Source: Isoetes taiwanensis
Taxonomy: Eukaryota; Streptophyta; Lycopodiopsida; Isoetales; Isoetaceae
Reading direction: 5' to 3'
DNA length: 64,000 bases
Assembly (NCBI GenBank): GCA_021234155.1
Contig: JAJEKV010000049.1
Span: forward strand, 5,079,001-5,143,000
The position numbers were made by a program, and so were the translations under genes. Every line of letters begins with the position of its first letter. Position 1 is the first letter of the stretch. The notes below the pieces were generated by a model. The model did not search any database. It was not told where the DNA came from and saw only the letters and a program-made list of their open reading frames with translations. This document shows positions 5,881 through 44,516 of this stretch, in pieces.

Positions 5881-5881
5881 T

Positions 5882-8520: not shown

Positions 8521-8530
8521 GAAGGAGGAG
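8521..8530 (+). other. copia polypurine tract
   Basis: GAAGGAGGAG lies directly before the TGTTAGAA start of the LTR, as expected for the plus-strand primer of an LTR retrotransposon. The same tract precedes the second LTR copy (19368-19377). Confidence 0.8.
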
Positions 8531-13640: not shown

Positions 13641-13861
13641 CGTATTGACGACCACTTATTGACGACCACGGCATGGCTCATTTCATAATACAAAGAGCAA
13701 GGATTTATCTTGCCATCAAGGACAATACCATTTGGGTGATAATGGTAGTGGATATCATATTTTTCTTGAACTCTCTTGTATTCCATTGCTCTAATGTATT
13801 TCTGTGACCTAATACAAAAATTGTGCCCTAGCATAGCCGCTTCTTCATTTGCTTTGTCACA
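13641..13861 (-). pseudogene. unidentified exon, U2 copy with 14 bp duplication
   Basis: Same exon as at 11307-11513, but 221 bp long because ATTGACGACCACTT is tandemly duplicated next to the donor, which shifts the frame by two before GTGAGTG. Upstream (minus) the acceptor is followed by TGTGACAAAGCAAATG, coding CDKANEE. The LINE-A copy 2 insertion lies 24 bp away on the 5' side. Confidence 0.6.
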
Positions 13862-13884
13862 CTGCACGCTGCGGCTTCTTGCTT

Positions 13885-14669
13885 TGGCAGTGGCGATGGG
13901 CCCGCAGCGACTCAAAGCCTGCTGGAAAGACAAGCAAGCCCAGTGGTTCTCGCTATGGAATGTGCAGGCACACAGATGTGGACCAGTGCATACAATCAAG
14001 GAACGCTACCTTGAAGCGGTGCCCGGATGCTTGCTTCATGGCCAAGCTTTTGGGATGCAGAGGCCTGTCACATCATGTCAAGGTGGCAAATTATTGACCG
14101 GAGTTAATCCCATGCTCACGAGGGGCCCACACCACTACCCCGCCGCACCCATCTACCCATGAAAAAGCGGGGTGATTGCTTCCATTCGCGCAGTGCACAC
14201 CACCTCCGCGATTGAGACGGAGATGGATTCTGGAGCCGCGGAGGACAGAGTCGATCTTTGTCAACAGAAGCCATTGAGGATGAAAATCACGCCCTCCGGG
14301 CTGTCCGTGCACGAGCATATCCCGGTCCTGCTCGGTATGCTTTCGGTTAGTTATGCCCCATCGGGCCTTGCATGAGCTACTGAGCCGCGGCCTCTGTAGG
14401 GCTTATTGGGATCGTACCTCCGGGAGGTAATGGATCACGCGGACTCGCTTATGCCCCCCATCCGGCATTAACCTCGGTTGTACTTGTGATTATGTATATA
14501 ATCATGCGGTATGTCAAAGATCCTTATTGCTACTAAGGTTTTCCCCGAAAACCCTTCCGGCGGGGTTTTTAATCCTGGTAGTAATACGCCTGCTGCTCTC
14601 TCTTTGTACTTGGGTCCCATAGGCCAGTTGGTCTCCGTGGACGATAAAATCATATTCTATTCTATTCCA
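13885..14669 (+). mobile_element. LINE-A copy 2, 5'-truncated
   Basis: A GC-rich 0.8 kb insert. The sister unit U6 (29,670-29,690) has TTGCTTCATCGCCATCTCTC, an approximate empty site, where U2 has the insert. It ends with the LINE-A signature: a CGAAAACCC hairpin near 14548, GGTCTCCGTGGACGATAAAA and a TTCTA-rich tail (about 14653-14668). The upstream part shows SLSTEAIEDENHAL near 14255, equivalent to the GAIEDESHT C-terminal motif of copy 1. No intact ORF. U5, the tandem partner, lacks both the insert and its flanks. Confidence 0.82.
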
Positions 14670-16023
14670 TTCTCTTTGCTTCATCTGCTTTGTTTCATAA
14701 AGATTGAAGAGTGTATTCCACCACAGTGTATGCTGTAATGTTTACTTCTACGCAAATATGAGACTGCCAGCACGTCCGACCATGGCCTCTGTTATAAAAT
14801 CGTTTGGGGCAGCTCCAATATTCAAAAGGTGCAATGTTGCTGATACATTTTACAAAAGGCCTCTTTAACTTCATGTTCTACACGGTGCTAGTCTTAAAGA
14901 CTTGACATTCATGCAACAAGAAAAATGCAGAAGTGTTTTTAGCTTCCAGTTGGGGCTTCATAACTGGTTCTTATCACTAGATTGTTTATATTCATCTGCT
15001 TTTTTATTACAAGAAATTTATCGCAGCGGCCTTGCTTTTGTTCGAATTGTTTCTAGTTTGAACTGTGATTATATGAATCGGTCTGATAGTCTTAGTGTCA
15101 AAGATGCCTAGTTTGACAATGTTGTGGTCTTTGTGATCCTTAGATTCTATTTGGGTTATGCATTCTATACAGGAATGGTAGACCATGGATTTATGTTTTC
15201 CTAGCTAGGCGGTATTTTAGTAGGCTCACCTAAGACCGAGCGAGAAGCCATGGACATGATAGCAAGAAGAGAATTGAAGCATTGAAGTACCATGCTAGCA
15301 AGGGACAATAAAAGCCAACAATGAGTATCATCAAATAAGTTTGTTGAAAAAAAAAATGGTTGGAACCATTTTTTAAATTGGTTATAAAAAAGCAAAGCAC
15401 CAAAGACATTAAGAAAAAGGAGATATTGTTGTTCTTTACCCTCGAAAACTATTACAACAAATCCAAGAGAACCAGGAAAAAGGAGATATTATTCTTAAAA
15501 ACTATTACAACAAATCCAAGTGAGCCATGCTGATCAGCCAACAGAACAGTCTGGGAATGGATGTGGTGCAAGGAGCAAAAGCCTTTGGATGCCAAGTTGC
15601 ATATTATTCCAAGAACCAGAAGCCAGATTGTGCTTTCCCCGATGTTCCTAATTATTAATCATATTAACTAGGAAATTACAATCTGAAAAAAAAGGCAAGT
15701 GCCAAGTAGAAAATTTTGGTTTATATAAATTACAAATGCTTCAATGAAGAATTTGTTGGTTTTGCTATGCAAACAGCATTATTGGCTAGTCTCGTCCATT
15801 TTGTTACATAAAAGTAGCAGGTCAATAACACGGGCATAAGAAGGTGACCTGAAATTCATAACATAGGTGACAGTATTGCCATGCAACTACTTGTTCGAGC
15901 TGTACAGTGTCAAGTGAGATTGCTATGTTTTATGGTTGAATTATTACAATAAGGAAGAAATGTTTTGCTGCATCAAAAAGAGTCACTGCACGAGCATGGT
16001 AGGTATTCATATTGCACTGGTAC

Positions 16024-16964
16024 CTTAATCGTGAGGCTCCAAAGTGCTCAGAAAATGTGATTATTATATCTGGTATATTATACATATTAAATCCTGCATC
16101 AATGGAACGGGCAAATGCCATCCGCTGCTCCCTTTGAAGCATTGATCTGCGCGCTTCCATTGCTTTTGTTAAGCGTAACCTGCACATCCCTTAAAGATTA
16201 GCCTAGATTAAAATTGTGCACCATATAGATGCTTAAAAGACACTCAAATAAAAAACAAAACCTCACTTGGAGCTCTCCCCTCCATCTTGATCCACATCAT
16301 CCAGGGATTCACGCCTTATTAACTATATTAACCATGAGCAAGAAAGGTAACCTCCCATTAGCCATGAATTCTAATAATCAGGACAAATGCACCAGGTATT
16401 GTTCACCCGATACACACCTTTGTCATACCCCCATCGTTATCCAGAGTTGACTTCTGAGTCGCTTTGCCACCTACAATTAAGTTACTTCAAATCTGTTAAA
16501 GCCCTTGATCCAGGTCTAGAAAATAAGAGTTTATCGGCTGAACGTATCATGATCATTGGTAATGTAATGATTGCCCACTACATGGCAGCGGTTAGAGCCA
16601 GGTTCCAGCTTTACCTGAGTCTTCATTTGCTTGATTGTATAAAGCTTCTTCTATTTGTAAAAGTTCTGCATCTATCTTGTTCTAATACTTCTGGCGTAAT
16701 CACAAAACGTAACCTAAAATCAAAGGAATGAGTAAGCAGATCAGGAATGCAAACGGCCTACAAATACATGAAAATTATATATACTTCTGCATGGTGCCCT
16801 TTGTAAACCAGCTCGCATTAATCTCTGAAGGGGGCTCCAATCTGATAGAATAGCCTCCAGCGGCTGTTTGTACTTCTGCAACTCGTAGGTGAGTAAGGAA
16901 CGGCTGCAGAAGGCCCGAAGTAAGCTTTTCTGTGACACCTTTGGCGCAGACCATGAGCTCGCAT
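16024..16964 (-). pseudogene. COP1-interacting protein 7-like gene fragment, copy 1, introns retained
   Basis: Minus-strand exons: 16785-16964 reads [49 protein letters not shown]. 16615-16713 reads LRFVITPEVLEQ and, after a one-base shift, LQIEEALYNQANED. A short exon near 16270-16325 reads RRESLDDVDQDGGESSK. 16024-16179 reads LRLTKAMEARRSMLQREQ and AFARSIDAGFN...FSEHFGASRLR. This is the N-terminal domain order of plant CIP7-related proteins. Splice phases match (AA|G at two joints). The frameshift in the second exon is shared by all three copies, so it predates the duplications. Confidence 0.82.
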
Positions 16965-17122
16965 CTAGATATCGCAATGTCCCATGAATAATCATGTTAT
17001 TTGAAACCTAGGCTTGGTCTACATAGGTATCCAAGTTCAGTCTGCAACAAAAATGAATACGCAGGTTGAATCTGCGAGAAACATGGGTTATCAGGAAGAA
17101 GAAATATACCAAGATCAGTCTC

Positions 17123-18270
17123 TGAAAAATATCGATTCCGGTGATCAAGTTGCCGCTCCTGCTTGCCCTTCTCATATTGGGGCCTTGCATTGGGTATTTT
17201 TTCAGAGTCCTTGCCATCGCCCTGTTTGCCCAGATAACTTTTTCAGAAAGCGGAAAGGAAGCATTCAGCCTATGCGTCTCGTACCTACGAAATCTTTGTG
17301 AAGCTTTAGAAAAGACTAGAAAGTAAGTATTCCGACCCACCACTATGCAAAGCCATAGCTCGCCATGCCACAACACTTGAGCTGAGGTCGTGCCCGCCAT
17401 CGCCAATAGCCAGGCGTCGAAATAGCAGGAGAATGCAAGAAGCTTAAGGAGAGGATTTGACGGAGCCGATTCCTCCCAAACGGATAAGGACAAAAACGTG
17501 GCATCGTTCGAAATTTTTTCCCAAATATTTTTCCCTCGCCATTTTTCCCCCCACCCAGGAATCTAAGGCATTAAAGAATCGAATCTTGGTGAGTCTCGAT
17601 TATATAAGTGTAGATATTCAATTACTAGCTATGAACAGTCTACATTCTATTTCTACATTTGCCATTCCATTTTCCTCTAGAATCTAACTTTGGGCAAAGG
17701 GTTACAAAGGGTGATCGGCCATAAGCCGAGAGGACCCAATGTACCTTTTGGCCCTTGCTATGTTACCATTTTCATGCTAACATAGTATTGTTTGGCTGCA
17801 GGTACGGATCCTCTCTTCCCTTTGTGATTCCTTTGCTGTTTATGTTAGTATTTTGTGGGAAGTGGATATGGAGCATCCAAGAAGCTGCTACCAAACGTCT
17901 CGATATGATAAGTTCTTCCTTTCGTCTGGTGTAATGCTGGCATAAAATTATTGTTAAGGGCTATCACTTGTGGCTTTAACTTCCATGCAGTTGGCTTTGT
18001 TTTAACTTCATGGAAAACAGAAATCAATTTACTAATCTAAAACATACTTGAGTAATTAAGCATGTAAGTAAGCATTCTTGTGCATTGGATTGGTGTATCC
18101 CACATATTGAGAAACAATATTCAAATGCTTTAAGTCTTTATTTTTTCATGTTTACATGTAAATGAAGGGTTCACTTGACAGACCTTATTTCTGAAACCAG
18201 TGGTCATTTTGATTTAATATGATATGCTGCTCCTTTGTAATTGCTATTCAGATATACTGGCATATATGCT
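17123..18270 (+). pseudogene. membrane-protein gene fragment, exons e1-e2 and truncated e3 (U2)
   Basis: e1 (to 17322) reads VIKLPLLLALLILGPCIGYF then FRVLAIALFAQITFSESGKE and ends LCEALEKTRK with donor AAA|GTAAGTAT. e2 (17802-about 17927) begins KYGSSLPFVIPLLFMLVF and includes WSIQEAATKRLDMISSSF. The e1/e2 phases fit (AA plus G). e3 starts near 18253 and is cut off by the duplication junction. Several hydrophobic stretches suggest an integral membrane protein; I cannot name the family. It lies head-to-head with the CIP7-like pseudogene. Confidence 0.5.
18117..18270. repeat. array unit U3, truncated at duplication junction
   Basis: Only the first 154 bp of a unit (ATATTCAAATG to CATATATGCT) are present before the sequence switches to copia RT. 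The switch marks the boundary between the two copies of the 10.8 kb tandem duplication. Confidence 0.9.
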
Positions 18271-19377
18271 CCAAGAGAATGGTATCTTTGCATAGACACT
18301 TTTCTAAGAGAGCAAGGGTTTGAAAATTTTCAAAATGATGGTAACTTATATAGATACAAAATAGGAGATAAATTTTGTATTATAGCCTTGTATGTAGATG
18401 ACTGCATCATGGTTGCTAATTCCACTCAAGTTCTGGAAGTTTGCAAAAATATTCTACAGCACAGATTCAAGACGACAGACTTAGGGCCCTTGCAAAAATT
18501 TCTGGGAATTGAGGTGATTAGAGACAGGAAAAACAGATTCTTTGTGAAACTAAAACAAAAAGGGCATATAGAAAATATGCTTAAAAGGTTCAATATGCAA
18601 CAAGCTTGTGCTTGTCAAAACTCCAATTGTATCGGGCCATCGTTTAACCAAGTTAAGTTCCGAGGTTGATGCGGATGAACTGAGTACATGACACAGTCCC
18701 ATATCGTGCTCTAGTAGGGTGTTTATGTACTTAAGCAACATTACTAGGCCTACATAACCTATCTTTGTCAATATCCTCCGAAGTAGAAGATGCAGCAATC
18801 CTGAAAAGGTTCACTGGTTGGCTGCAAAAAGAGTATTAAAATATCTGAAAGGAACTCAAGATTATGGGATAACTTTCAATGATAATAATCTAGAAATGTA
18901 TGCCTATTCAGGATGCGATCAAGGCGGTGATCAAACGTAAAGGAAGTCTACTACGGGTTATGTGATTTTTTCTTGGGGGGCACAATAAGTTGGAGAACCA
19001 AGAAACAGTCTGCTATAGCCTTATCTTCAGCAGAAGCTGAATATGCAGCCTCATCTCTTTTGTCCAGAGAAATAATTTGGCTTAGAAGACTTCTAGAAGA
19101 GTTGGATATCAAACAGATAAATCCTACAACTATCTTTTCTGATAGCCAAAGTTGCATTGCAATAGTCAAAAATCCAGCTTGAACATGAGAGAACTAAACA
19201 TATTGAGTTAAGCTTGCATTACATCGAGATCAAGCAAAGAAAGGGCAATATCCAAATGATGTATATCAGAACCCGACAAACAAATAGCGGATGTTTTCAC
19301 AAAAGGGCTTCCGTAAAGTAAGTTTACTGCTTTTCAAAAGCGGTTAAAGGTTAATTGCTTATGCAATGAAGGAGGAG
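18271..19377 (+). pseudogene. copia RT C-terminal half and RNase H, duplicated copy
   Basis: It starts inside YGLKQAPREW and keeps ALYVDDCIM, LGPLQKFLGIEV and MLKRFNMQQAC. Single-base indels near 18610-18730 break the frame. RNase H is better preserved than in the left copy: ISWRTKKQSAIALSSAEAEY, then WLRRLLEELDIKQINPTT and FSDSQSCIAIVKNP. It has no own 5' half because it was created by duplication, not retrotransposition. Confidence 0.9.
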
Positions 19378-19897
19378 TGTTAGAAAAATGAGGTCATTGC
19401 ATAAGAGTGTGTCATGTGATATTCGAGCACATAAGGGGATTAGTGACCACATTTTGGCTCCCCTAGGCTAATGAGGATTCATACAAGCATTCATGAGAAA
19501 CAAAGGCGTTGAATGCAAGAAAGAAAAGCTCGAATTGAAAAGTGGCGGGCAGGTACTACCACTCGAGGTTGCTACGCCCGAAAATCGCTTGGTACCCCCC
19601 CCTCGCCACTTAGGGTTTTGGGTTGATCGGTCAACGGTCAAAGTCAACGACAAACCGAACTTAAGGACAGCAGGGCATTCTATTATCCAGGCAAGTTGGA
19701 AAACTTTCTATATGAAGGGCATGCACGATTTGACAAGTGGATATGTCCAGATTGGCAAGAAAATATTCATATGTATATAGGGATGATGGGGATAGATGAA
19801 TGCATCTGTTGTAGATGAAGTTATAGGTGCGGATTGGAAGAGGCAGAAGCATATACTTGGTATACTTGAGTTCATATCCTAAGCTTTGATTCTAACA
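19378..19897 (+). repeat. copia 3' LTR, duplicated copy (520 bp)
   Basis: TGTTAGAA...TTCTAACA ends as in 8531-9051, preceded by the GAAGGAGGAG tract. Three W-box cores remain at 19629-19647. The identical downstream flank (GCCCTGTCTAATCGC) shows that this is the same insertion duplicated. Confidence 0.85.
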
Positions 19898-20127
19898 GCC
19901 CTGTCTAATCGCACAAACAGACCTGGTAGAATTTGCAATATCGGATACACAAAGTGTGTAATGTACTCCACACAGTAGTCCTTCCATGCAATCTTTTTCG
20001 AGGATTTTAGAATGGCTACACCCAAAGCCTTTAATATGAACATAGTAAGAAGCATTATGATGCCGGATCCCTCATCCCAAAGAAATGCATCTTTGGTGGG
20101 GAACCCCGAACAGTTGCTTGGATATTC

Positions 20128-20364
20128 CTAAAGACCAAAAAGCTTCTCTACAATCTTAGTATATGCATTTTCATGGCGCTTTTCATCAGCTGCAACAAGG
20201 CCACAGATGGTGGCTAGCTTAGGATCACCAAGCTCCTTAGCATGGCGGGCGGTATTACCATGGGATATGGCAGTGGCTCGCCCCTGAAAGGAGGTATAGA
20301 TGAATCCCAAGTAAGGGTCGTTCTCCGTTTGCGCTGTTGCATTTGAATCCAGATGCGAAGCCAA
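20128..20364 (-). pseudogene. stearoyl-ACP desaturase fragment, copy 2
   Basis: Open for 78 codons on the minus strand: [60 protein letters not shown]. It matches the di-iron ligand region of plant plastid acyl-ACP desaturases. Unlike copy 1 it has Gln (CAG) in TSFQGR. Neither the rest of the gene nor a transit peptide is nearby. The first residues of the open frame are KCS sequence read out of frame, so the piece cannot be an independent gene. Confidence 0.88.
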
Positions 20365-20562
20365 TCTGCCAAATCCGATCCCCTTTTTTGATCCTTACCT
20401 TGGCCTCTGTATAAGCCAGCTCGTACCACAGCGAGCTGCTTGACGTATTACCAAATCGATACAGTGTCATCCTTGAAGGTTCCATATGCCACGAACTCAA
20501 TTAGCTTAAATTCTTCTCTAGTTCGTCTAACACAGCTCTTCCTCCGCATGGAAGTAGGAAAA
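20340..20562 (-). pseudogene. 3-ketoacyl-CoA synthase C-terminal fragment, copy 2
   Basis: GGRAVLDELEKNLS, stop, then [31 protein letters not shown] and [18 protein letters not shown] on the minus strand. It is 5' of, and out of frame with, the desaturase piece; the switch occurs after CNSA. The conserved Asn of RFGNTSS is kept. KCS enzymes catalyse the first step of very-long-chain fatty acid elongation at the ER; this remnant cannot. Confidence 0.88.
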
Positions 20563-20799
20563 AGCTTCGACCTAGCAACCCTAAAAAAATAATCCACACA
20601 ACCCTAAAAAAAAACCATGAAACCCACCACAAAAAAAGCCACCACAGCATTTGCCCTCTTTTCTAAAATCAACGGCTAACAAAAGGGTGCACTCTAGAAA
20701 TACTATTTAGTATACCTGGATGAATACGGCCACCAAATCATATGAAAACCTTAGAGAAAACAATACAAAAACAAAAAAAAACCCCTGTTATAATGCTAC

Positions 20800-23100
20800 A
20801 TATTCAAATGCTTTAAGTCTTTATTTTTTCATGTTTACATGTAAATGAAGGGTTCACTTGACAGACCTTATTTCTGAAACCAGTAGTCATTTTGATTTAA
20901 TATGATATGCTGCTCCTTTGTAATTGCTATTCGAATCTTGGCATATATGCTTCCTACTTTTCCAAGACTACAATGTCACATCTAATGTTACCGCATGGTC
21001 TTTGTGGGCTCGCATTGGCATTTTGGTTTTGTCGCAGCCTTCATGGACTCTGTTTGCTAGTGTATAAGTAGCAAGGGAAGTTCAGGCGTATTAAAGATTA
21101 ATCGTCTGATTAAGTTTACATGGTTATAAGGATAACTTGTCTTGGACTTGTACTTTGGATATCAGACTATAGGAACACAAGTACCAAGTTTGAATGCGTT
21201 CAGATTTTTGGATTGACTGAAGCTGATGCTGACCTAGGATACTAGGTTAGGCCGGGTTTTTTTTAAACACTTCAATTCTCTGGTTTAACTGGAGTTGCTT
21301 GTGTCCTTCAGTATATTATCCTATCGATCATGCATTCAATCTCTATATTGATTTATCTTAAACCAGCATTACTAATGACTGCTAAACTTTTACAGGATTT
21401 TCTCTATTCGTTATTACAGAAGGATTTTTCAGCAAGAAATCTTATAAAAGATTCTAATTCTTTAAGGCAACCTCTGCCACTTGGCTTAATACCAATGATC
21501 ATATGCCACTCGGCCTGATAAATTATAAGTTACCAGAAAGACTCACGCATGAACTTGGACTCAATTTTGACATAAAGACTATGCTACAGGGAATCATTAA
21601 ACGCCATCAGAGGTATTTAGTCTGATCCTGCTGATAATATAAGGGTTTTTACTTATTGGGTTGGGTCTGGCCTCTGCTGTATAGTAGGGGTCACCCCTCC
21701 CTATTTATACAATCAAATTATCCTGAGGTCAACCTCACCTTACGGGTGGTGGTAGGTTTTTTTTTATAATTATGAACATCACGTTATCCTGATGCACTGA
21801 ACATCATCATGTTGCTCTAAAATGACATAAAATAGCCAATGGGGCACTTGTTTACTATATGAACATGCTCATTTTACCTTAGAAATGTTAAACATGGATT
21901 TCACGTAAGAAAACATACATATGTGTACTTTGGCCTCATCCAATTTCGATTTATAAGGTTAGAAACTTTTAGTAAATTTGTGGGTCTCATTATTATATCC
22001 AATTACCTTGAATATACATGCATGCATGCATGTTTGCCATGTGTTGGCTTTTCGATTGCACTATACCTTTTTGTTGCATGAAAGTGACGTTCTACATGAG
22101 GATCAAAAAGATGAAAAAACACACTTACCTTATTGACGACCACGGCATGGCTCATTTCATAATACAAAGAGCAAGGATTTATCTTGCCATCAAGGACAAT
22201 ACCATTTGGGTGATAATGGTAGTGGATATCATCTTTTTCTTGAACTCTCTTGTATTCCATTGCCCTAATGTATTTCTGTGACCTAATACAAAAATTGTGC
22301 CCTAGCATAGCCGCTTCTTCATTTGCTTCGTCACACTGCACAATGTATGCTGTAATGTTTACTTCTACGCAAATATGAGACTGCCAGCAAGTCCGACCAT
22401 GGCCTCTGTTATAAAATCGTTTGGGGCAGCTCCAATATTCAAAAGGTGCAATGTTGCTGATATATTTTACAAAAGGCCTCTTTAACTTCATGTTCTACAC
22501 GGTGCTAGTCTTAAAGACTTGACATTCATGCAACAAGAAAAATGCAAAAGTGTTTTTAGCTTCCAGTTGGGGCTTCATAACTGGTTCTTATCACTAGATT
22601 GTTTATATTCATCTGCTTTTTTATTATATTCAATTACTAGCTTTGAACAGTCTACATTCTATTTCTACATTTGCCATTCCATTTTCCTCTAGAATCTAAC
22701 TTTGGGCAAAGGGTTACAAAGGGTGATCGGCCATAAGCCGAGAGGACCCAATGTACCTTTTGGCCCTTGCTATGTTACCATTTTCATGCTAACATAGTAT
22801 TGTTTGGCTGCAGGTACGGATCCTCTCTTCCCTTTGTGATTCCTTTGTTGTTTATGTTAGTATTTTGCGGGAAGTGGATATGGAGCATCCAAGAAGCTGC
22901 TACCAAACGTCTCGATATGATAAGTTCTTCCTTTCGTCTGGTGTAATGCTGGCGTAAAATTATTCTTAAGGGCTATCACTTTTTGTTTTAATTTCATGGA
23001 ACAGAAATCAATTTACTAATCTAAAACATACTTGAGTAATTAAGCATGTAAGCAAGCATTCTTGTGCATTGGATTGGTGTATCCCATATATTGAGAAACA
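20800..23100. repeat. array unit U4 (short form, 2.3 kb)
   Basis: Tandem-duplicate partner of U1, with the same internal deletion. It contains membrane exon e3 remnants (20935-21070), the TTTTACAG block (21390), the unidentified exon (22129-22335) and membrane exon e2 (22815-22945). The e3 region differs from U1 mainly at CAG/CTG positions. Confidence 0.85.
22129..22335 (-). pseudogene. unidentified 69-codon exon, U4 copy
   Basis: Same 207 bp exon as 11307-11513 with intact acceptor and GTAAGTG donor. In this copy the upstream region also stays open in frame back to 22491 (NIAPFEYWSCPKRF...GRTCWQSHICVEVN), so the exon might extend 5' without an intron here. Family not recognised. Confidence 0.55.
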
Positions 23101-23374
23101 ATATTCAAATGGTTTAAGTCTTTATTTTTTCATGTTTACATGTAGATGAAGGGTTCACTTGACAGACCTTATTTCTGAAACCAGTGGTCATTTTGATTTA
23201 ATATGATATGCTGCTCCTTTGTAATTGCTATTCAGATATACTGGCATATATGCTTCCTACTTTTTCCAAGACTACAATGTCACATCTAATGTTACTGCAT
23301 GGTCTTTGTGGCTCTGGAATTGGCATTTTTGGTTTTGTTGCAGGCCTTCATGGACTCTGTTTGCTAGTGTATAA
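22815..23374 (+). pseudogene. membrane-protein gene fragment, exons e2-e3 (U4/U5)
   Basis: e2 after GGCTGCAG reads YGSSLPFVIPLLFMLVF, GKWIWSIQEAATKRLDMI and keeps the frame. e3 (from about 23239) has the CAGATATACTGG two-base insertion, so GLHGLCLLVYK is out of frame with the exon start. e1 is absent, as in the other short unit. Confidence 0.5.
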
Positions 23375-24452
23375 GTAGCAAGGGAAGTTCAGGCGTATTA
23401 AAGATTAATCGTCTGATTAAGTTTACATGGTTATAAGGATAACTTGTCTTAGACTTGTACTTTGGATATCAGACTATAGGAACACAAGTACCAAGTTTCA
23501 ATGCGTTCAGATTTTTGGATTGATAATACAGTGGATGGATTGACTGAAGCTGATGCTGACCTAGGATACTAGGTTAGGCCGAAGTTTTTAGACACTTCAA
23601 TTCTCCTCGTTTAACCGGAGTTGCTTGTGTCCTTCAGTCCTATTATCCTATCGATCATGCATTCAATCTCTATATTGATTTATCTTAAACCAAAGATTAC
23701 TAATGACCAAGCTAAACTTTTACAGGATTTTCTCTATTCGTTATTACAAAAGGATTTTTCAGGAAGAAATCTTATAAAAGATTCTAATTCTTTAAGGCAA
23801 CCTCTGCCACTTGGCTTAATACCAATGATCATATGCCACTCGGCCTGATAAATTATAAGTTACCAGAGAGACTCACGCATGAACTTGGACTCAATTTTGA
23901 CATAAAGGCTATGCTACAGGGAATCATTAAACGCCATCAGAGGTATTTAGTCTGATCCTGCTGATAATATAAGGGTTTTTGCTTATTGGGTTGGGTCTAA
24001 CCTCTGCTGTACGGGTCAGCCCTCCCTATTTATACAATCAAATTATCCTGAGGTCAACCTCACCTTACGGGTGGTGGTAGGTTTTTTTTATAATTATGAA
24101 CATCACGTTATCCTGATGCACTGAACATCATCATGTTGCTCTAAAATGACATAAAATAGCCAATGGGGCACTTGTTTACTATATGAACATGCTCATTTTA
24201 CCTTAGAAATGTTAAACATGGATTTCACGTAAGAAAACATACATATGTGTACTTTGGCCTCATCCAATTTCGATTTATAAGCTTAGAAACTTTTAGTAAA
24301 TTTGTGGGTCTCATTATTATATCCAATTACCTTGAATATACATGCATGTATGCATGTTTGCCATGTGTTGGCTTTTCGATTGCACTATACCTTTTTGTTG
24401 CATGAAAGTGACGTTCTACATGAGGATCAAAAAGATGAAAAAACACACTTAC

Positions 24453-24659
24453 CTTATTGACGACCACGGCATGGCTCATTTCATAATACAAAGAGCAAGG
24501 ATTTATCTTGCCATCAAGGACAATACCATTTGGGTGATAATGGTAGTGGATATCATCTTTTTCTTGAACTCTCTTGTATTCCATTGCCCTAATGTATTTC
24601 TGTGACCTAATACAAAAATTGTGCCCTAGCATAGCCGCTTCTTCATTTGCTTCGTCACA
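24453..24659 (-). pseudogene. unidentified 69-codon exon, U5 copy
   Basis: Same exon as at 11307-11513, 207 bp, both splice sites kept. Its flank lacks the CGCTGCGGCTTC...CCACCACAG segment found in U2 and U6 and so resembles the short units, consistent with gene conversion between units. Confidence 0.58.
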
Positions 24660-25973
24660 CTGCACAATGTATGCTGTAATGTTTACTTCTACGCAAATAT
24701 GAGACTGCCAGCACGTCCGACCATGGCCTCTGTTATAAAATCGTTTGGGGCAGCTCCAATATTCAAAAGGTGCAATGTTGCTGATACATTTTACAAAAGG
24801 CCTCTTTAACTTCATGTTCTACACGGTGCTAGTCTTAAAGACTTGACATTCATGCAACAAGAAAAATGCAGAAGTGTTTTTAGCTTCCAGTTGGGGCTTC
24901 ATAACTGGTTCTTATCACTAGATTGTTTATATTCATCTGCTTTTTTATTACAAGAAATTTATCGCAGCGGCCTTGCTTTTGTTCGAATTGTTTCTAGTTT
25001 GAACTGTGATTATATGAATCAGTGCGAGATAGTCTTAGTGTCAAAGATGCCTAGTTTGACAATGTTGTGGTCTTTGTGATCCTTAGATTCTATTTGGGTT
25101 ATGCATTCTATACAGGAATGGTAGACCATGGATTTATGTTTTCCTAGCTAGGCGGTATTTTAGTAGGCTCACCTAAGACCGAGCGAGAAGCCATGGACAT
25201 GATAGCAAGAAGAGAATTGAAGCATTGAAGTACCATGCTAGCAAGGGACAATAAAAGCCAACAATGAGTATCATCAAATAAGTTTGTTGAAAAAAAAATG
25301 GTTGGAACCATTTTTTAAATTGGTTATAAAAAAGCAAAGCACCAAAGACATTAAGAAAAAGGAGATATTGTTGTTCTTTACCCTCGAAAACTATTACAAC
25401 AAATCCAAGAGAACCAGGAAAAAGGAGATATTATTCTTTCTTAAAACTATTACAACAAATCCAAGTGAGCCATCTTGATCGAATATGAACGATGTACCGG
25501 GAATGGATGTGGTGCAAGGAGCAAAAGCCTTTGGATGCCAAGTTGCATATTATTCCAAGAACCAGAAGCCAGATTGTGCTTTCCCCGATGTTCCTAATTA
25601 TTAATCATATTAACTAGGAAATTACAATCTGAAAAAAAAGGCAAGTGCCAAGTAGAAAATTTTGGTTTATATAAATTACAAATGCTTCAATGAAGAATTT
25701 GTTGGTTTTGCTATGCAAACAAAGATTATTGGCTAGTCTCGTCCATTTTGTTACATAAAAGTAGCGGGTCAATAACACGGGCATAAGAAGGTGACCTGAA
25801 ATTCATAACATAGGTGATGATGTTGCCATGCAACTACTTGTTCGAGTGCATGCAAGTGTCAAGTGAGATTGCTATGTTTTATGGTTGAATTATTACAATA
25901 AGGAAGAAATGTTTTGTCTGCATCAAAAAGAGTCACTGCACAAGCATGGTAGGTATTCATATTGCACTGGTAC

Positions 25974-26909
25974 CTTAATCGTGAGGCTCCAAAGTGCTCA
26001 GAAAATGTGATTATTATATCTGGTATATTATCCATATTAAATCCTGCATCAATGGAACGGGCAAATGCCATCCGCTGCTCCCTTTGAAGCATTGATCTGC
26101 GCGCTTCCATTGCTTTTGTTAAGCGTAACCTGCACATCCCTTAAAGATTAGCCTAGATTAAAATTGTGCACCATATAGATGCTTAAAAGACACTCAAATA
26201 AAAAACAAAACCTCACTTGGAGCTCTCCCCTCCATCTTGATCCACATCATCTAGGGATTCACGCCTTATTAACTATATTAACCATGAGCAAGAAAGGTAA
26301 CCTCCCATTAGCCATGAATTCTAATAATCAGGACAAATGCACGGGTATTGTTCACCCGATACACACCTTTGTCATACCCCCATCGTTATCCGAGTTGACT
26401 TAAATTAAACTTTGCCACCTACAATTAAGTTACTTCAAATCTGTTAAAGCCCTTGATCCGGTCTAGAAAAATAAGAGTTTATCGGCCGAAGCGTATCATG
26501 ATCATTGGTAATGTAATGATTGCCCACTACATGGCGTGATTTAGAGCGGTGTTCCAGCTTTACACGAGTCTTCATTTGCTTGATTGTATAAAGCTTCTTC
26601 TATTTGTAAAAGTTACGCATCTATCTTGTTCTAATACTTCCAGCGTAATCACAAAACGTAACCTAAAATCAAAGGAATGAGTAAGCGGATCGAATGCAAA
26701 CGGCCTACAAATACATGAAAATTATATATACTTCGCATGGTGCCCTTTGTAAACCAGCTCGCATTAATCTCTGAAGGGGCTCCAATCGATAGAATAGCCT
26801 CCAAATTTGTTTGTACTTCACACAACTCGTAGGTGAGTAAGGAACACGGCTGCAGAAGGCCGAAATAAGCTTTTCTGTGACACCTTTGGCGCAGACCATG
26901 AGCTCGCAT
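25974..26909 (-). pseudogene. CIP7-like gene fragment, copy 2
   Basis: Same exons as copy 1. The 25974-26129 exon is intact (LRLTKAMEARRSMLQREQ ... FSEHFGASRLR). The 26732-26909 exon has lost bases at several former CTG/CAG sites (for example CTTCGCATGG for CTTCTGCATGG), which breaks [11 protein letters not shown] and what follows. The second exon keeps the ancestral frameshift. Confidence 0.8.
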
Positions 26910-27059
26910 CTAGATATCGCAATGTCCCATGAATAATCATGTTATTTGAAACCTAGGCTTGGTCTACATAGGTATCCAAGTTCGATCCGCAACAAAAATG
27001 AATCACGCAGGTTGAATCTGCGAGAAACATGGGTTATCGGGGAAGAAGAAATATACCAA

Positions 27060-28355
27060 GATCAGTCTAAAAAAATATCGATTCCGTGATCAAGTTGCCG
27101 CTCCGCTTGCCCTTCTCATATTGGGGCCTTGCATTGGGTATTTTTTCGAGTCCTTGCCATCATACTTTTGCCCGGATAACTTTTTTTCGAAAGCGGAAAG
27201 GAAGCATTCACCTATCGTCTCCATTACCCTCTAAATCTTTGTGAAGCTTTAGAAAAGACTAGAAAGTAAGTATTCCGACCCACCACTATGCAAAGCCATA
27301 GCTCGCCATGCCACAACACTTGAGTCGAGGTCGTGCGCCCGCCATCGCCAATAGCCAAAGCGCCGAAATAGCGGGAGAATGCAAGAAGCTTAAGGAGAGG
27401 ATTTGACGGAGCCGATTCCTCCCAAGCGGATAAGGACAAAAAACGTGGCATCGTTCAAATTTTTTCCCAAATATTTTTCCCTCGCCATTTTTCCCCACCC
27501 GGGGAATCTAAGGCATTAAAGAATCGAATCTTGGTGAGTCTCGATTATATAAGTGTAGATATTCAATTACTAGCTATGAACAGTCTACATTCTATTTCTA
27601 CATTTGCCATTCCATTTTCCTCTAGAATCTAACTTTGGGCAAAGGGTTACAAAGGGTGATCGGCCATAAGCCGAGAGGACCCAATGTACCTTTTGGCCCT
27701 TGCTATGTTACCATTTTCATGCTAACATAGTATTGTTTGGCTGCAGGTACGGATCCTCTCTTCCCTTTGTGATTCCTTTGCTGTTTATGTTAGTATTTTG
27801 TGGGAAGTGGATATGGAGCATCCAAGAAGCTGCTACCAAACGTCTCGATATGATAAGTTCTTCCTTTTCGATGCGGTGTAATCTTTGGCATAAAATTATT
27901 GTTAAGGGCTATCACTTGTGGCTTTAACTTCCATGCAGTTGGCTTTGTTTTAACTTCATGGAAAACAGAAATCAATTTACTAATCTAAAACATACTTGAG
28001 TAATTAAGCATGTAAGTAAGCATTCTTGTGCATTGGATTGGTGTATCCCACATATTGAGAAACAATATTCAAATGCTTTAAGTCTTTATTTTTTCATGTT
28101 TACATGTAAATGAAGGGTTCACTTGACAGACCTTATTTCTGAAACCAGTGGTCATTTTGATTTAATATGATATGCTGCTCCTTTGTAATTGCTATTCAGA
28201 TATACTGGCATATATGCTTCCTACGTTTTCCAAGACTACAATGTCACATCTAATGTTACTGCATATCTAATGTTACTGCATGGTCTTTGTGGCTCTGGCA
28301 TTGGCATTTTTTGTTTTGTCGCATGCCTTCATGGACTCTGTTTGCTAGTGTATAA
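27060..28355 (+). pseudogene. membrane-protein gene fragment, exons e1-e3 (U5/U6)
   Basis: e1 (to about 27265) is corrupted at several sites but keeps the LCEALEKTRK end and the GTAAGTAT donor. e2 starts after GGCTGCAG (about 27748) with YGSSLPFVIPLLFMLVF. e3 lies in the start of U6 (about 28200-28355). The gene therefore spans the arbitrary unit boundary used here. Confidence 0.48.
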
Positions 28356-29431
28356 GTAGCAAGGGAAGTTCAGGCGTATTAAAGATTAATCGTCTGATTA
28401 AGTTTACATGGTTATAAGGACAACTTATCTTAGACTTGTACTTTGGATATCAGACTATAGGAACACAAGTACCAAGTTTGAATGCGTTCAGATTTTTGGA
28501 TTGATAATACAATGGATGGATTGACTGAAGCTGATGCTGACCTAGGATACTAGGTTAGGCCGGGTTTTTTTTAGACACTTCAATTCTCTGGTTTAACTGG
28601 AGTTGCTTGTGTCCTTCAGTCTATTATCCTATCGATCATGCATTCAATCTCTATATTGATTTATCTTAAACCAGCATTACTAATGACTGCTAAACTTTTA
28701 CAGGATTTTCTCTATTCGTTATTACAGAAGGATTTTCCAACAAGAAATCTTATAAATGATTCTAATTCTTTAAGGCAACCTCTGCCACTTGGCTTAATAC
28801 CAATGATCATATGCCACTCGGCCTGATAAATTATAAGTTACCAGAGAGACTCACGCATGAACTTGGACTCAATTTTGATATAAAGACTATGCGACAGGGA
28901 CTCATTAAACGCCATCAGAGGTATTTAGTCTGATCCTGCTGATAATATAAGGGTTTTACTTATTGGGTTGGGTCTGGCCTCTGCTGTACCCTCCCTATTT
29001 ATACAATCAAATTATCCTGAGGTCAACCTCACCTTACGGGTGGTGGTAGGTTTTTTTTATAATTATGAACATCACGTTATCCTGATGCACTGAACATCAT
29101 CATGTTGCTCTAAACATGACATAAAATAGCCAATGGGGCACTTGTTTACTATATGGACATGCTCATTTTACCTTAGAAATGTTAAACATGGATTTCACGT
29201 AAGAAAACATACATATGTGTACTTTGGCCTCATCCAATTTCGATTTATAGGGTTAGAAACTTTTAGTAAATTTGTGGGTCTCATTATTATATCCAATTAC
29301 CTTGAATATACATGCATGCATGCATGTTTGCCATGTGTTGGCTTTTCGACACTATACCTTTTTGTTGCATGAAAGTGACGTTCTACATAGTTTTATATGC
29401 AAGGATCAAAAAGATGAAAAAACACACTTAC

Positions 29432-29652
29432 CGTATTGACGACCACTTATTGACGACCACGGCATGGCTCATTTCACAATACAAAGAGCAAGGATTTATC
29501 TTGCCATCAAGGACAATACCATTTGGGTGATAATGGTAGTGGATATCATCTTTTTCTTGAACTCTCTTGTATTCCATTGCCCTAATGTATTTCTGTGACC
29601 TAATACGAAAATTGTGCCCTAGCATAGCCGCTTCTTCATTTGCTTCGTCACA
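29432..29652 (-). pseudogene. unidentified exon, U6 copy with 14 bp duplication
   Basis: The reading CDEANEEAAMLGHNFRIRS and onwards is intact up to the donor-side duplication ATTGACGACCACTT, as in U2. The upstream segment CGCTGCGGCTTCTTGCTTC is present. Confidence 0.58.
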
Positions 29653-30357
29653 CTGCACGCTGCGGCTTCTTGCTTCATCGCCATCTCTCTTTGCTTCATC
29701 TACTTTGTTTCATAAAGATTGAAGAGTGTATTCCACCACAGTGTATGCTGTAATGTTTACTTCTACGCAAATATGAGACTGCCAGCAAGTCCGACCATGG
29801 CCTCTGTTATAAAATCGTTTGGGGCAGCTCCAATATTCAAAAGGTGCAATGTTGCTGATATATTTTACAAAAGGCCTCTTTAACTTCATGTTCTACACGG
29901 TGCTAGTCTTAAAGACTTGACATTCATGCAACAAGAAAAATGCAGAAGTGTTTTTAGCTTCCAGTTGGGGCTTCATAACTGGTTCTTATCACTAGATTGT
30001 TTATATTCATCTGCTTTTTTATTACAAGAAATTTATCGCAGCGGCCAAGGCCGCCGCGAACATTTCTTTTGTTCGAATTGTTTCTAGTTTGAACTGTGAT
30101 TATATGAATCAGTGCGAGATAGTCTTAGTGTCAAAGATGCCTAGTTTGACAATGTTGTGGTCTTTGGGATCCTTAGATTCTATTTGGGTTATGCATTCTA
30201 TGCAGGAATGGTAGACCATGGATTTATGTTTTCCTAGCTAGGCGGTATTTTAGTAGGCTCACCTAAGACCGAGTGAGAAGCCATGGACATGATAGCAAGA
30301 AGAGAATTGAAGCATTGAAGTACCATGCTAGCAAGGGACAATAAAAGCCAACAATGA

Positions 30358-31876
30358 TTTTCATTGGTAAGGATGATTCTCCTGGCCTGAGGTGGTTGGT
30401 GCAGTCGATTCAGCATTGTCTCTCCCGTTTCATAAAGCAACCATTAAGCCCCTCCTTCCTTGGGCTTTGATTTATCATATGCATCCGTATCCTAATGCTT
30501 CTCCCTTTCTGAAGGGGTTGCTTGCTGCTTGGGACACTGTCAGGTCTCTTTTCCATATTAATCCTGAGGCATGTCTTCAGTTGTCCGCTCCATGCTGGTG
30601 GATTCCGGTGCAGGACACTCCAGAGGATGTGCCTCTAAGTGTGGTTGTTCATCCAAAGACTCAACGACGATGGGTAGCAGCTGGTATCAGCACTATTGCA
30701 GCTTGGTATGAGTCTGGTCATCTCATGTCATGGGAAGCATTTAGAACAAAGTTCTTGTTGTACAGATGGGACAGAGTAATCTGAAATCATATTGCTGCAT
30801 TGTTGCCACAGGATTCTGGTCCACAGAGTGAGGTAGTCGTATGGGGTTGCCATCAGGATATTCAGCCAGAGCGGTTTGTGTCTTCTGTGTACAAATTGCT
30901 TTTGCGTTCTGAAATCCTGCCTTTATCTGATAGGTGGCATCTTCAGGTCCCTCAGCCACAATAGAAAAGTGTTTGGATATGGGTTTGGGATAAGCTGCTT
31001 CATCCCAAAGTAGTAGTTCTGTGGTGGCAAGTGGTCCATAGATGTCTCAGAGTCAACAAGTTAGTCCATAAAATGGATAATCGGATTTCAGAGCTCTGTT
31101 CTTTATGCCAGCAAAGGGTTGAGAGTATTGAGCATTGTTTTTTCTTGTGTGAGCGGCTTCGGCAGGCATGGTCTTGGTTGTTGATCCTATTTGGCACGTC
31201 TAGATTCTAGCCAGCAAATTTTGCTTGCTATCTATCCGGATGCTTGGCCCAAACTACGGAAACGAGCTTTTCATCTCGCATGTGGCTGGCTTTTATGGTC
31301 AATCTGGAAGAGAAGGAGGTTGTTTATCTTTAAGGGCGTAGATACTGCAGATGAGATTGTTCTTCAGTGGGCGCAAAATAAAATTATTATGGCTTACAAT
31401 TGTTCTTCTCTTGATCAAGAGAAGAAAGTACTGATCTGGCATACTTACCTTCAGATTCATTCTTTTGCATAGGCAGGTGGTTGTGCTCAGTTGGATCGGT
31501 TTGTCCACTGGGGTTATATTCTTGTCTTTGCATTTTATGTTGGGGTAAAAGCATGTTAGGGCCTACATAAAAAATTACCAAAAAGGTACTTTTCTGTGTA
31601 CTTCTGTGCAAGTACATAATTGTATTTTAAAGTACCTAGACTACAAGATTGACTAAAAGAAATTGTGTTATGTTCAAGAGTAGTAGTACATACATGTTGT
31701 AAGATACTTTGTGATGTCAAGAAGATGTTAAGAACTCAAATATATCATCATCTTTGACTACCCAGAGTATTTTCCAGGTAGTTTCCAAAACATGTAGGCC
31801 CTAACATGCTCTTACCCGTTGCTCTGATTTTTAGTTGGTGAATAAAGCTTGTCGTCCTTCAAAAAAATAAAAATAA
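30358..31876 (+). mobile_element. LINE-C, 5'-truncated, with 18 bp target duplication
   Basis: A 1.5 kb insert absent from sister units at the same place. AATAAAAGCCAACAATGA at 30340-30357 is repeated at 31877-31894, directly after an A-rich tail. The + strand codes the C-terminal half of a LINE ORF2: an open part (30392-30784), then readings LLLRSEILPLSDRWHLQVP and KLLHPKVVVLWWQVVHRCLR, then the reverse-transcriptase zinc finger ELCSLCQQRVESIEHCFFLC and GWLLWSIWKRRRLFIFK. One TAG lies near 30961. Truncation with poly(A) and a long TSD is the normal outcome of target-primed reverse transcription. Confidence 0.92.
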
Positions 31877-32466
31877 AATAAAAGCCAACAATGAGTATCA
31901 TCAAATAAGTTTGTTAAAAAAAAAAATGCTTGGAACCATTTTTTAAATTGGTTAAGAAAAAGCAAAGCACCAAAGACATTAAGAAAAAGGAGATATTGTT
32001 GTTCTTTACCCTCGAAAACTATTACAACAAATCCAAGAGAACTAGGAAAAAGGAGATATTATTCTTCTGTATCCTTGAAAACTATTACAACAAATCCAAG
32101 TGAGCCATGCTGATCAGCCAACAGAACAGTCTGGGAATGGATGTGGTGCAAGGAGCAAAAGCCTTTGGATGCCACTGAGTTGCATATTATTCCAAGAACC
32201 AGAAGCCAGATTGTGCTTTCCCGGATGTTCCTAATTATTAATCATATTAACTAGGAAATTACAATCTGAAAAAAAAAGGCAAGTGCCAAGTAGAAAATAT
32301 TGGTTTATATAAATTACAAATGCTTCAATGAAGAATTTGTTGGTTTTGCTATGCAAACAGCATTATTGGCTAGTCTCGTCCATTTTGTTACATAAAAGTA
32401 GCAGGTCAATAACACGGGCATAAGAAGGTGACCTGAAATTCATAACATAGGTGACAGTATTGCCAT

Positions 32467-32925
32467 GAATAGAATAGAATAGAATAGAATAGAATAGTTT
32501 TTTTAACGTCCACGGAGACCAATAGGTCATGGGACCCATACAATGGGCTAGTACAATCATTACTACTAGGATTAAAAAACCCCTGCCTCGAAAGGTTTTC
32601 AAGGGAAAAACCTTTGCAGTAATGATGATACTAGACAAGATTAGATAATGACTACTGAGGGCTCAGTAATTGCAGACGTTTATCTAGAACCTCAAGTATG
32701 TATAATGCCAAGTCATGCACAGATGGTGCGCTGAGAAGTTGTGGAAGCGTGGAATGGAATGCTAAGGTCGAAAAATGATTCCGGACTATCTCAAAAGCAG
32801 GGCAACTCAGAAGAGTATGGCTTTCATCTTCAATAACCTGTAACTGGCAACAGGCACATAGTCTCGCTTCTCGCGGCAATTGCGGCCGCTCCCATCTACC
32901 TGTCTCAATTGCGGCAATTGCGGCA
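32467..32925 (-). mobile_element. LINE-A copy 3, 5'-truncated
   Basis: Sister units read GTATTGCCATGCAACTACTTG; here the sequence is interrupted after CCATG. On the minus strand the insert codes PREARLCACCQLQVIEDESH then TLLSCPAFEIVRNHFSTL (32652-32879), the C-x2-C...H...C C-terminal finger of this LINE family. The shared 3' UTR block GGTCTCCGTGGACG follows and the TTCTA tail (AATAG repeats on +, 32466-32493). This copy preserves the finger that is broken in copy 1. Confidence 0.85.
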
Positions 32926-33055
32926 TGATAACTACTTGTTCGAGCTGAGATTGCTATGTTTTATGGTTGAATTATTACAATAAGGAAGAAATGTTTTGTC
33001 TGCATCAAAAAGAGTCACTGCACAAGCATGGTAGGTATTCATATTGCACTAGTAC

Positions 33056-33990
33056 CTTAATCGTGAGGCTCCAAAGTGCTCAGAAAATGTGATTATTATA
33101 TCTGGTATATTATACATATTAAATCCTGCATCAATGAAACGGGCAAATGCCATCCGCTGCTCCCTTTGAAGCATTGATCTGCGCGCTTCCATTGTTTTTG
33201 TTAAGCGTAACCTGCACATCCCTTAAAGATTAGCCTAGATTAAAATTGTGCACCATATAGATGCTTAAAAGACACTCAAATAAAAAACAAAACCTCACTT
33301 GGAGCTCTCCCCTCCATCTTGATCCACATCATCCAGGGATTCACGCCTTATTAACTATATTAACCATGAGCAAGAAAGGTAACGTCCCATTAGCCATGAG
33401 TTCTAATAATCAGGACAAATGCACCAGGTATTGTTCATCCTATATACACCTTTGTCATACCCCCATCCTTATCCCGAGTTGACTTCTGCTTTGCCACCTA
33501 CAATTAAGTTACTTCAAATCTGTTAAAGCCCTTGATCCAGGTCTAGAAAATAAGAGTTTATCGGCTGAACGTATCATGATCATTGGTAATGTAATGATTG
33601 CCCACTACATGGCAGCGGTTAGAGCCAGGTTCCATCTTTACCCGAGTCTTCATTTGCTTGATTGTATAAAGCTTCTTCTATTTGTAAAAGTTCTGCATCT
33701 ATCTCGTTCTAATACTTCTGGCGTACTCACAAAACGTACAAACCTTATATCAAAGGAATGAGTAAGCAGATCAGGAAGGCAAATGGCCTACAAATACATG
33801 AAAATTGTATATACTTCTGCATGGTGCCCTTTGTAAACCAGCTCACATTAATCTCTGAAGGGGGCTCCAATCTGAATAGCCTCCAGCGGCTGTTTGTACT
33901 TCTGCAACTCGTAGGTGAGTAAGGAACGGCTGCAGAAGTCTCGAAGTAAGCTTTTCTGTGACACCTTTGGCGCAGACCATGAGCTCGCAT
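33056..33990 (-). pseudogene. CIP7-like gene fragment, copy 3
   Basis: The 33056-33211 exon reads LRLTKTMEARRSMLQREQ to FGASRLR. The N-terminal exon ends at 33990 and keeps most of the CIP7-like reading. The middle exon shows the same one-base shift as the other two copies. Differences from copy 1 are ordinary scattered substitutions, in contrast to copy 2. Confidence 0.8.
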
Positions 33991-34156
33991 CTAGATATCG
34001 CAAAGCCCCATGAATAATCATGTTATTTGAAACCTAGGCTTGGTCTACATAGGTATCCAAGTTCAGTCTGCAACAAAAATGAATACGCAGGTTGAATCTG
34101 CGGGAAACATGGGTTATCAGGAAGAAGAAATAAATACCAAGATCAATCTCTAAAAA

Positions 34157-35409
34157 ATATCGATTCCGGTGATCAAGTTGCCACTCCTGCTTGCCCTTCT
34201 CATATTGGGGCCTTGCATTGGGTATTTTTTCAGAGTCCTTGCCATCGCCCTGTTTGCCCAGATAACTTTTTCAGAAAGCGGAAAGGAAGCATTCAGCCTG
34301 TGCATCTCCTACCTACGAAATCTTTGTGAAGCTTTAGAAAAGACTAGAAAGTAAGTATTCCGACCCACCACTGAGCAAAGCCATAGCTCGTCATGCCACA
34401 ACACTTGAGCTGAGGTCATGCCCGCCATCGCCAATAGCCAGGCGTCGAAATAGCAGGAGAACACAAGAACCTTAAGGAGAGGATTTGATGGAGCCGATTC
34501 CTCCCAAGCGGATAAGGACAAAAACGTGGCATCGTTCGAAATTTTTTCCCAAATATTTTTCCCTCGCGATTTTTTCCCCACCCAGGAATCTAAGGCATTA
34601 AAGAATCGAATCTTGGTGAGTCTCGATTATATAAGTGTAGATATTCAATTACTAGCTATGAACAGTCTACATTCTATTTCTAAATTTGCCATTCCATTTT
34701 CCTCTAGAATCTAACTTTGGGCAAAGGGTTACAAAGGGTGATCGGCCATAAGCCGAGAGGACCCAATGTACCTTTTGGCCCTTGCTATATTACCATTTTC
34801 ATGCTAACATAGTATTGTTTGGCTGAGGTACGGATCCTCTCTTCCCTTTGTGATTCCTTTGTTGTTTATGTTAGTATTTTGCGGGAAGTGGATATGGAGC
34901 ATCCAAGAAGCTGCTACCAAACGTCTCGATATGATAAGTTCTTCCTTTCGTCTATTGTAATGCTGGCGTAAAATTATTGTTAAGGGCTATCACTTGTGGC
35001 TTTAACTTCCATGCAGTTGGCTTTGTTTTAACTTCATGGAAAACAGAAATCAATTTACTAATCTAAAACATATACTTGAGTAACTAAGCATGTAAGTAAG
35101 CATTCTTGTGCATTGGATTGGTGTATCCCACATATTGAGAAACAATATTCAAATGCTTTAAGTCTTTATTTTTTCATGTTTACATGTAAATGAAGGGTTC
35201 ACTTGACAGACCTTATTTCTGAAACCAGTAGTCATTTTGATTTCTGCTCCTTTGTAATTGCTATTCAGATACTGGCATATATGCTTCCTACTTTTTCCAA
35301 GACTACAATGTCACATCTAATGTTACTGCATGGTCTTTGTGGCTCTGGCATTGGCATTTTTGGTTTTGTCGCAGGCCTTCATGGACTCTGTTTGCTAGTG
35401 TATAAGTAG
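34157..35409 (+). pseudogene. membrane-protein gene fragment, exons e1-e3 (U6/U7)
   Basis: e1 (34157-34350) is open: VIKLPLLLALLILGPCIGYF, ALFAQITFSESGKEAFSL, LCEALEKTRK, donor GTAAGTAT. The e2 acceptor is damaged (GGCTGAGGTACGG). e3 (35269-35409) reads ILAYMLPTFSKTTMSHLM, GSGIGIFGFVAGLHGLCLLV, YK and stop. With e2 from other copies the three phases fit (e1 AA plus e2 G; e2/e3 phase 0), so about 150 residues with several transmembrane stretches can be read. Family unknown. Confidence 0.52.
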
Positions 35410-36039
35410 CAAGGGAAGTTCAGGCGTATTAAAGATTAATCGTCTGATTAAGTTTACATGGTTATAAGGATAACTTGTCTTGGACTTGTACTTTGGATAT
35501 CAGACTATAGGAACACGAGTACCAAGTTTGAATGCGTTCAGATTTTTGGATTGATAATACAATTGGATGGATTGATCAAGGCGATCTTTGACCTAGGATA
35601 CTAGGTTAGGCCGGGTTTTTTAGACACTTCAATTCTCTCGGTTTAACCGGAGTTGCTTGTGTCCTTCGGTCTATTATCCTATCGATCATGCATTCAATCT
35701 CTATATTGATTTATCTTAAACCAAAGATACTAATGACCGCTAAACTTTTACGAGGATTTTCTATTCGTTATTACGTAAGGATTTTTCAAAGAAGAAATCT
35801 TATAAAAGATTCTAATTCTTTAAGGCAACCTCTGCCACTTGGCTTAATACCAATGATCATATGCCACTCGGCCTGATAAATTATAAGTTACCAGAGAGAC
35901 TCACGCATGAACTTGGACTCAATTTTGACATAAAGACTATGCTACAGGGAATCATTAAACGCCATCAGAGGTATCACTACAGGAGAATGAATAATCGTCA
36001 GAGAGCCTTTATAAAATAGACAACTGCCCAGGCCCTTAT

Positions 36040-44055: not shown

Positions 44056-44516
44056 GTCATTCTCTTGTAGTGTATTTAGTCTGATCCTGCTGATAATATA
44101 AGGGTTTTTACTTATTGGGTTGGGTCTGGCCTCTGCTGTATAGTAGGGGTCACCCCTCCCTATTTATACAATCAAATTATCCTGAGGTCAACCTCACCTT
44201 ACGGGTGGTGGTAGGTTTTTTTTTATAATTATGAACATCACGTTATCCTGATGCATTGAACATCATCATGTTGCTCTAAAATGACATAAAATAGCCAATG
44301 GGGCACTTGTTTACTATATGAACATGCTCATTTTACCTTAGAAATGTTAAACATGGATTTCACGTAAGAAAACATACATATGTGTACTTTGGCCTCATCC
44401 AATTTCGATTTATAAGGTTAGAAACTTTTAGTAAATTTGTGGGTCTCATTATTATATCCAATTACCTTGAATATACATGCATGCATGCATGTTTGCCATG
44501 TGTTGGCTTTTCGATT

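Follow-up and report, generated by a model that had tools for sequence, protein, structure and literature searches.

Why do near-identical copies of a plant repeat differ from one another so often at CAG and CTG trinucleotides? The question is raised by a window of 64,000 nucleotides of Isoetes taiwanensis DNA (assembly GCA_021234155.1, contig JAJEKV010000049.1, positions 5,079,001 to 5,143,000 of the forward strand; the window is this whole stretch). A preliminary description had noticed that differences between repeat copies fall at CAG/CTG (together CWG, part of the plant CHG context), had read them as consensus error at methylated CWG sites, and had proposed, among other checks, the unselected context spectrum of a full alignment and a classification of each difference. 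Judged from the sequence, the CWG-site differences are very probably base-calling artefacts in the assembly and not sequence changes in the organism. This reading rests on the concentration at CWG, the grouping in patches, the symmetry between strands, outcomes tied to the following base, and the greater age of the CWG-bearing state wherever age could be judged.

Differences between sister repeats concentrate at CAG/CTG

Self-BLAST of the window shows a nested set of direct repeats made up of blocks A and B and a third, interrupted block, with units u1-u6 of ~1.3-2.1 kb each:

7431 to 18270, plus strand: repeat block A (segment X at 7431-9955, units u1 and u2, segment Y at 14722-18270)
18268 to 29675, plus strand: repeat block B (segment X, units u3 and u4, segment Yb, unit u5)
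29681 to 35974, plus strand: third, interrupted block (pieces of Yc and unit u6)

Sister copies are 92.7-97.1% identical in alignments over 1 kb, and segment X is partly a piece of Copia pol. Across five repeat alignments, used with no selection of patches, 108 of the 299 short difference events touch CWG, as against 31.2 expected (standard deviation 5.5), a count reached by 0 of 1000 circular shifts; here the motif is taken from any copy, and ~0.66 kb common to two alignments is counted twice. The same count gives 105 events at CG (23.6 expected) and 64 at CCG/CGG (15.4 expected), figures that are inflated because the motif is taken from any copy and the changes themselves create these motifs. 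In a directional test, a copy is judged only at sites where its sisters are unanimous. Of the 32 trinucleotide classes, CAG/CTG then has the highest rate of disruption (56 of 334 site-copies), followed by CGC/GCG (10/108) and CGA/TCG (17/184). One 6.4-kb alignment has 49 of its 104 short difference events at CWG. In two pairs of diverged paralogs at 52-57 kb, CWG is hit little or no more often than expected (9/39 events, 9.7 expected; 16/52, 10.9 expected).

The concentration at CAG/CTG that had been described is thus confirmed, and the unselected context spectrum, being biased to CWG, agrees with the reading as consensus error. That ordinary divergence between repeat copies simply happened to fall at CWG draws some support from how common single-nucleotide polymorphisms and indels away from CWG are between units: neither CWG nor CG is involved in 19 of the 23 events private to u5 or in 29 of the 44 in segment Y3 of Yc. 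Many differences between copies are of this ordinary kind, which qualifies the preliminary description. Chance divergence nonetheless fails on the counts, since none of the circular shifts comes up to the number observed, and its probability is negligible.

The altered sites lie in patches

The changes are grouped in patches, with one or two copies affected at a time:

7930 to 8850: patch in copy A, where CWG is lost relative to copy B in the sister alignment and CG is often gained
11540 to 11807: probable small patch at the end of u1, with CG-containing strings where copy B has CWG and a CWG observed/expected ratio of 0.5
18535 to 18745: patch in copy B of segment X
19940 to 20100: patch in copy B of segment X, with CAAAG and CTTTG replacements
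20930 to 21045: patch in u3
23580 to 23770: patch in u4, with some replacements in common with u6, though u4 is otherwise closest to u2
25470 to 25830: patch in Yb
26330 to 27500: largest patch, in Yb, with 25 of 34 CWG disrupted in the directional test
27860 to 27895: small patch at the Yb/u5 overlap, with CTTTG
35570 to 35795: patch in u6, with zero CWG left and a CG observed/expected ratio of 1.31

The pattern does occur in the span 20930-35792 to which it had been assigned, and it extends beyond that span to ~7.93-8.85, 18.54-18.75, 19.94-20.10 and probably 11.55-11.81 kb; the last of these, at 11540-11807, was left out of the patch base counts and CWG outcome rows given below. In the largest patch, Yb 26330-27500, CWG density is 10.2/kb, where the sister stretches have 35.6 and 33.3/kb; CG density there is 47.8/kb, and in the sisters 34.7 and 29.9/kb.

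Rates of base change were pooled over the six patches with three or more copies, taking as reference the state common to all sisters, with the Yb/u5 overlap at 27860-27895 entering one alignment as patch and the other as elsewhere; as the patches were picked after inspection, these rates describe and do not test. Inside CWG, 70/170 bases are changed in patches (15/709 elsewhere). The corresponding figures are 33/204 (13/845) for bases 1-2 from CWG, 14/168 (12/741) for bases 3-4 away, 33/1405 (127/13574) for bases at least 5 away and outside CG, and 5/58 (12/353) for CG bases away from CWG. The claim that neighbouring CAG/CTG and all other sequence are unchanged is only roughly true. Some changes in patches fall away from CWG, at 33 of the 1405 far bases and 5 of the 58 CG bases. 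Nor is each CWG in a patch altered, 29 of the 123 CWG rows described below being kept.

The enrichment of patches in changes away from CWG would fit assembly errors of another kind, stemming from one or a few raw reads or from another error-prone platform, with no role for methylation. Random raw-read error would not favour CWG over the other 31 trinucleotide classes, nor would it obey the next-base rules set out below, and we consider such an origin improbable.

Replacement depends on the next base

All changes at CWG were written on the CAG strand for nine patches (two positions are entered twice, the sisters differing there, and the segment X reference is a single sister). Among the resulting 123 CWG rows, 29 are kept, 54 have gained CG, 13 have become CA(A)AG and 27 show other outcomes. 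Sorted by the base that follows, they are distributed as follows:

CAGA: 26 CG, 0 CA(A)AG, 6 other, 13 kept
CAGG: 15 CG, 1 CA(A)AG, 1 other, 7 kept
CAGC (28 rows): 6 CG, 9 CA(A)AG, 7 other, 6 kept
CAGT: 7 CG, 3 CA(A)AG, 13 other, 3 kept

The outcome depends on the next base: when A or G follows, CAG is mostly replaced by a string containing CG, and when C follows, often by CAAAG. CA(A)AG and CG outcomes number 9 and 6 for CAGC, versus 4 and 48 in all other contexts (p = 5.6e-5), and the comparison of CAGC with CAGA and CAGG together gives p = 4.9e-6. The two strands behave alike, with 29 CG and 6 CA(A)AG outcomes in the 63 rows written as CAG and 25 and 7 in the 60 written as CTG. One changed state is common to u4 (23616) and u6 (35648), units of different lineage, while u4 otherwise shares many states with u2. 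The recurrence of the same replacements on both strands is thereby borne out. All eight replacement strings quoted in the preliminary description are present, two of the coordinate pairs being off by one (CAAAG starts at 25720 and 35722). Counts of CAGCA and CAAAGA in 2-kb bins were dropped, the numbers being too small.

The type of outcome bears directly on deamination of methylated CHG, which would turn CAG into TAG or CAA and CTG into TTG or CTA. For this comparison, 120 CWG in patches were classified (30 kept or merely shifted, 90 altered) along with 564 outside (503 kept or shifted, 61 altered). Outside the patches 23 of the 61 altered CWG are of the deamination type, which looks like ordinary decay; 10 others gained CG, 2 became C(A)nG or C(T)nG and 26 are other. 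Inside, 53 of the 90 altered sites gained CG, another 10 turned into C(A)nG or C(T)nG strings and 12 are other, and several of the 15 counted as deamination-type are really pieces of CAAAG or CTTTG strings. Decay of the ordinary kind is thus present outside, and the patches are dominated by another process. Deamination does not replace several bases at once or bring in indels. CHG deamination is therefore disfavoured, failing on outcome type as an account of the patches, and is very unlikely to explain them. The classification of each difference agrees with a base-calling artefact.

The motif, the symmetry between strands and the recurrence would also fit a biological, sequence-directed process that rewrote CWG sites in some copies, leaving real CG-containing or CAAAG strings on both strands. 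We know of no enzyme that would put CG strings or CAAAG in the place of CAG. The outcomes match the behaviour expected of a base caller, and the same effect is described for nanopore data at methylated CWG-containing motifs (PMC6591954, PMC10687267), so we give a biological rewriting of these sites very little credence.

The CWG-bearing state is the older one where it can be judged

Where three or more copies exist, the majority was taken as the older state. Segment X has only two copies, A and B, which differ in 61 difference groups; 31 of these differ in CWG count, 15 with the loss in A and 16 with the loss in B. The 31 differences form only 8 runs along the segment, as few being found in 26 of 20000 shuffles, such that the damaged side swaps between A and B several times in ~2 kb of near-identical sequence. 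Reading frames in the Copia piece point the same way in both stretches checked. At 7.70-7.90 kb the frame of A is open, and the matching B stretch at 18.54-18.75 kb has lost CWG and breaks. Near 18.99-19.18 kb it is B that is open where A is broken; this open stretch resembles Copia RNase H, as judged by motif and not by a Pfam hit. In each case the copy with the open reading frame is the one that bears CWG. The frame test is limited to these two stretches because B is not intact everywhere between them. Where the sequence allows a judgement, it is the state with CWG that came first.

Alternation of this kind resembles a described failure of short-read polishing in repeats, in which reads favour the error-free instance and the erroneous one is left with no reads across its error (Wick and Holt 2022, PMC8812927). 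Errors would persist in repeats if polishing reads went to the copy that was clean beforehand, and this would yield the alternating one-sided damage seen in segment X, where one copy is clean and its sister damaged. The failure is described there for bacteria, whereas in the window it is read from the alternation of damaged copies.

The same base-calling artefact could arise without polishing playing a part, if the patches marked real differences in CHG methylation between sisters and the error map were a frozen methylation map. Long one-sided runs are also expected if one copy is methylated and the other is not along a stretch, and the miscall depends on methylation either way. Repeated switching of the damaged side within ~2 kb of near-identical sequence would be odd for methylation, although it is not a strict test. 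We regard this as a possible, rather doubtful, source of the patches.

Probable mechanism and precedents

The pattern is most likely a sequencing artefact; its kind is known, and its signature here is unusually clear. The platform, the methylation of CWG and the polishing step are things we infer rather than observe. In the mechanism we propose, 5-methylcytosine (5mC) at CWG would shift the nanopore current, and a base caller that meets 5mC mainly in CpG would call the shifted signal as a string containing CG or, when C follows, as CAAAG. An error common to all reads would be kept by the consensus. In each near-identical stretch, short-read polishing may then have corrected one copy while too few reads reached the other, leaving a mosaic of raw patches inside repeats; we hold this last step to be somewhat favoured.

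Dcm methylates the inner C of CCAGG/CCTGG, hence a motif with a CWG core. About 70% of consensus errors by the then-current base callers of Oxford Nanopore Technologies fell in these Dcm motifs, and a custom-trained model made almost no errors there (Wick et al. 2019, PMC6591954). These are likewise systematic consensus errors at a methylated motif with a CWG core, but in bacteria, genome-wide and at a five-base motif, whereas in the window any CWG is affected and the damage is in repeat patches; the passages of that paper relevant here do not state the replacing strings (PMC6591954). In Listeria genomes, modification-mediated nanopore errors occur at GCAGC or GCTGG, and whole-genome amplification raised quality (Chiou et al. 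2023, PMC10687267). As in the window, the motifs contain CWG and the DNA is native; unlike there, the genomes are bacterial and the errors are described as mismatches (PMC10687267). Nanopore miscalls of telomere repeats show that strings with similar current profiles are swapped, also when their lengths differ (Tan et al. 2022, PMC9414165). These share with the window the replacement of whole strings with possible change of length, and differ in being strand-specific and, in the passages cited, not ascribed to methylation (PMC9414165).

In plants, CHG methylation has a large role in transposon silencing (PMC8514461) and is strong around a pea centromere (PMC10027222), and the authors of a plant base-calling study expect methylation differences to cost accuracy (PMC9749173). 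Among the matches listed in our literature search, titles and abstract openings describe no CWG-specific string replacement in plant assemblies, though it may still be published.

Several observations weigh against a base-calling artefact at methylated CWG. Good and bad Listeria genomes could not be told apart by their counts of known 5mC, leaving the modification type open there (PMC10687267). In the window, context does not fix the outcome strictly, and a single CTGG site has three different readings in u2, u4 and u6. A block of ~10 bases in Yb (26402-26412) is replaced wholesale relative to both sisters, which also differ mutually, and goes beyond what CWG rules alone explain. The patch rates for bases at least 5 from CWG and for CG bases away from CWG, given above, are likewise raised. 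Indels in homopolymers, which are the other usual mark of nanopore data, do not stand out: of 43 single-column indels, 10 fall in runs of at least 4 bases, and they were not used as independent proof of nanopore origin. Finally, single-copy sequence may not be clean everywhere; a LINE-like (long interspersed nuclear element) region at 48-50 kb is frame-broken and CWG-poor with no cause assigned. Taking both sides together, consensus error at methylated CWG sites, as the preliminary description had it, remains the best explanation: it is strongly indicated, short of proof.

In sequence that is single-copy within the window, a reverse-transcriptase domain is open through 7065-7430. The frames of the LINE-like region at 48.4-49.5 kb were dropped as a damage test, no intact relative being at hand. 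Low CWG observed/expected ratios occur in several 1-kb bins, for example at 11, 25, 27, 49 and 60 kb, and CWG depletion along the window was rejected as a damage detector in single-copy sequence, natural composition being inseparable from damage.

Other features of the window

The domains present (a Copia-type integrase and RVT_2, an RVT_1 piece and a leucine-rich repeat (LRR) kinase frame of 715 residues) make the window look like plant nuclear DNA. Scans of the window found 0 Rfam families and 0 tRNA genes. The Copia frame breaks at 6457-6490, where the sequence has one copy in the window; the two open frames on either side overlap and match successive parts of the retroviral SH3-like domain. 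A 445-base piece of the repeat unit recurs at 44072-44516 and is directly adjoined by a tandem array of a ~180-base unit at 44516-45412. Islands of ~50-60% GC lie at 1001-6000 and 45001-50000, the rest of the window having 37-42% GC; the second contains the RVT_1 reverse-transcriptase piece, which appears LINE-like. The 715-residue LRR receptor-kinase frame lies within 52568-58074, its kinase match stopping early (Pfam profile positions 5-138 of 258), alongside diverged duplicated pieces at 52.6-53.6 and 54.9-56.6 kb.

Implications

The next-base outcome rule, the bias towards creation of CG and the way in which damage switches between the two copies of segment X go beyond what had been described for this DNA. 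The rules, by which CAG turns into CAAAG when C follows and into a CG string when A or G follows, on both strands, provide a screen that needs no reads. Should the strings be real, they would reflect a mutational process so far unknown. If they are artefacts, near-identical repeats in a long-read assembly of a CHG-methylated genome can hold dozens of false differences, which break frames, inflate the ages of repeats and create false CpG sites.

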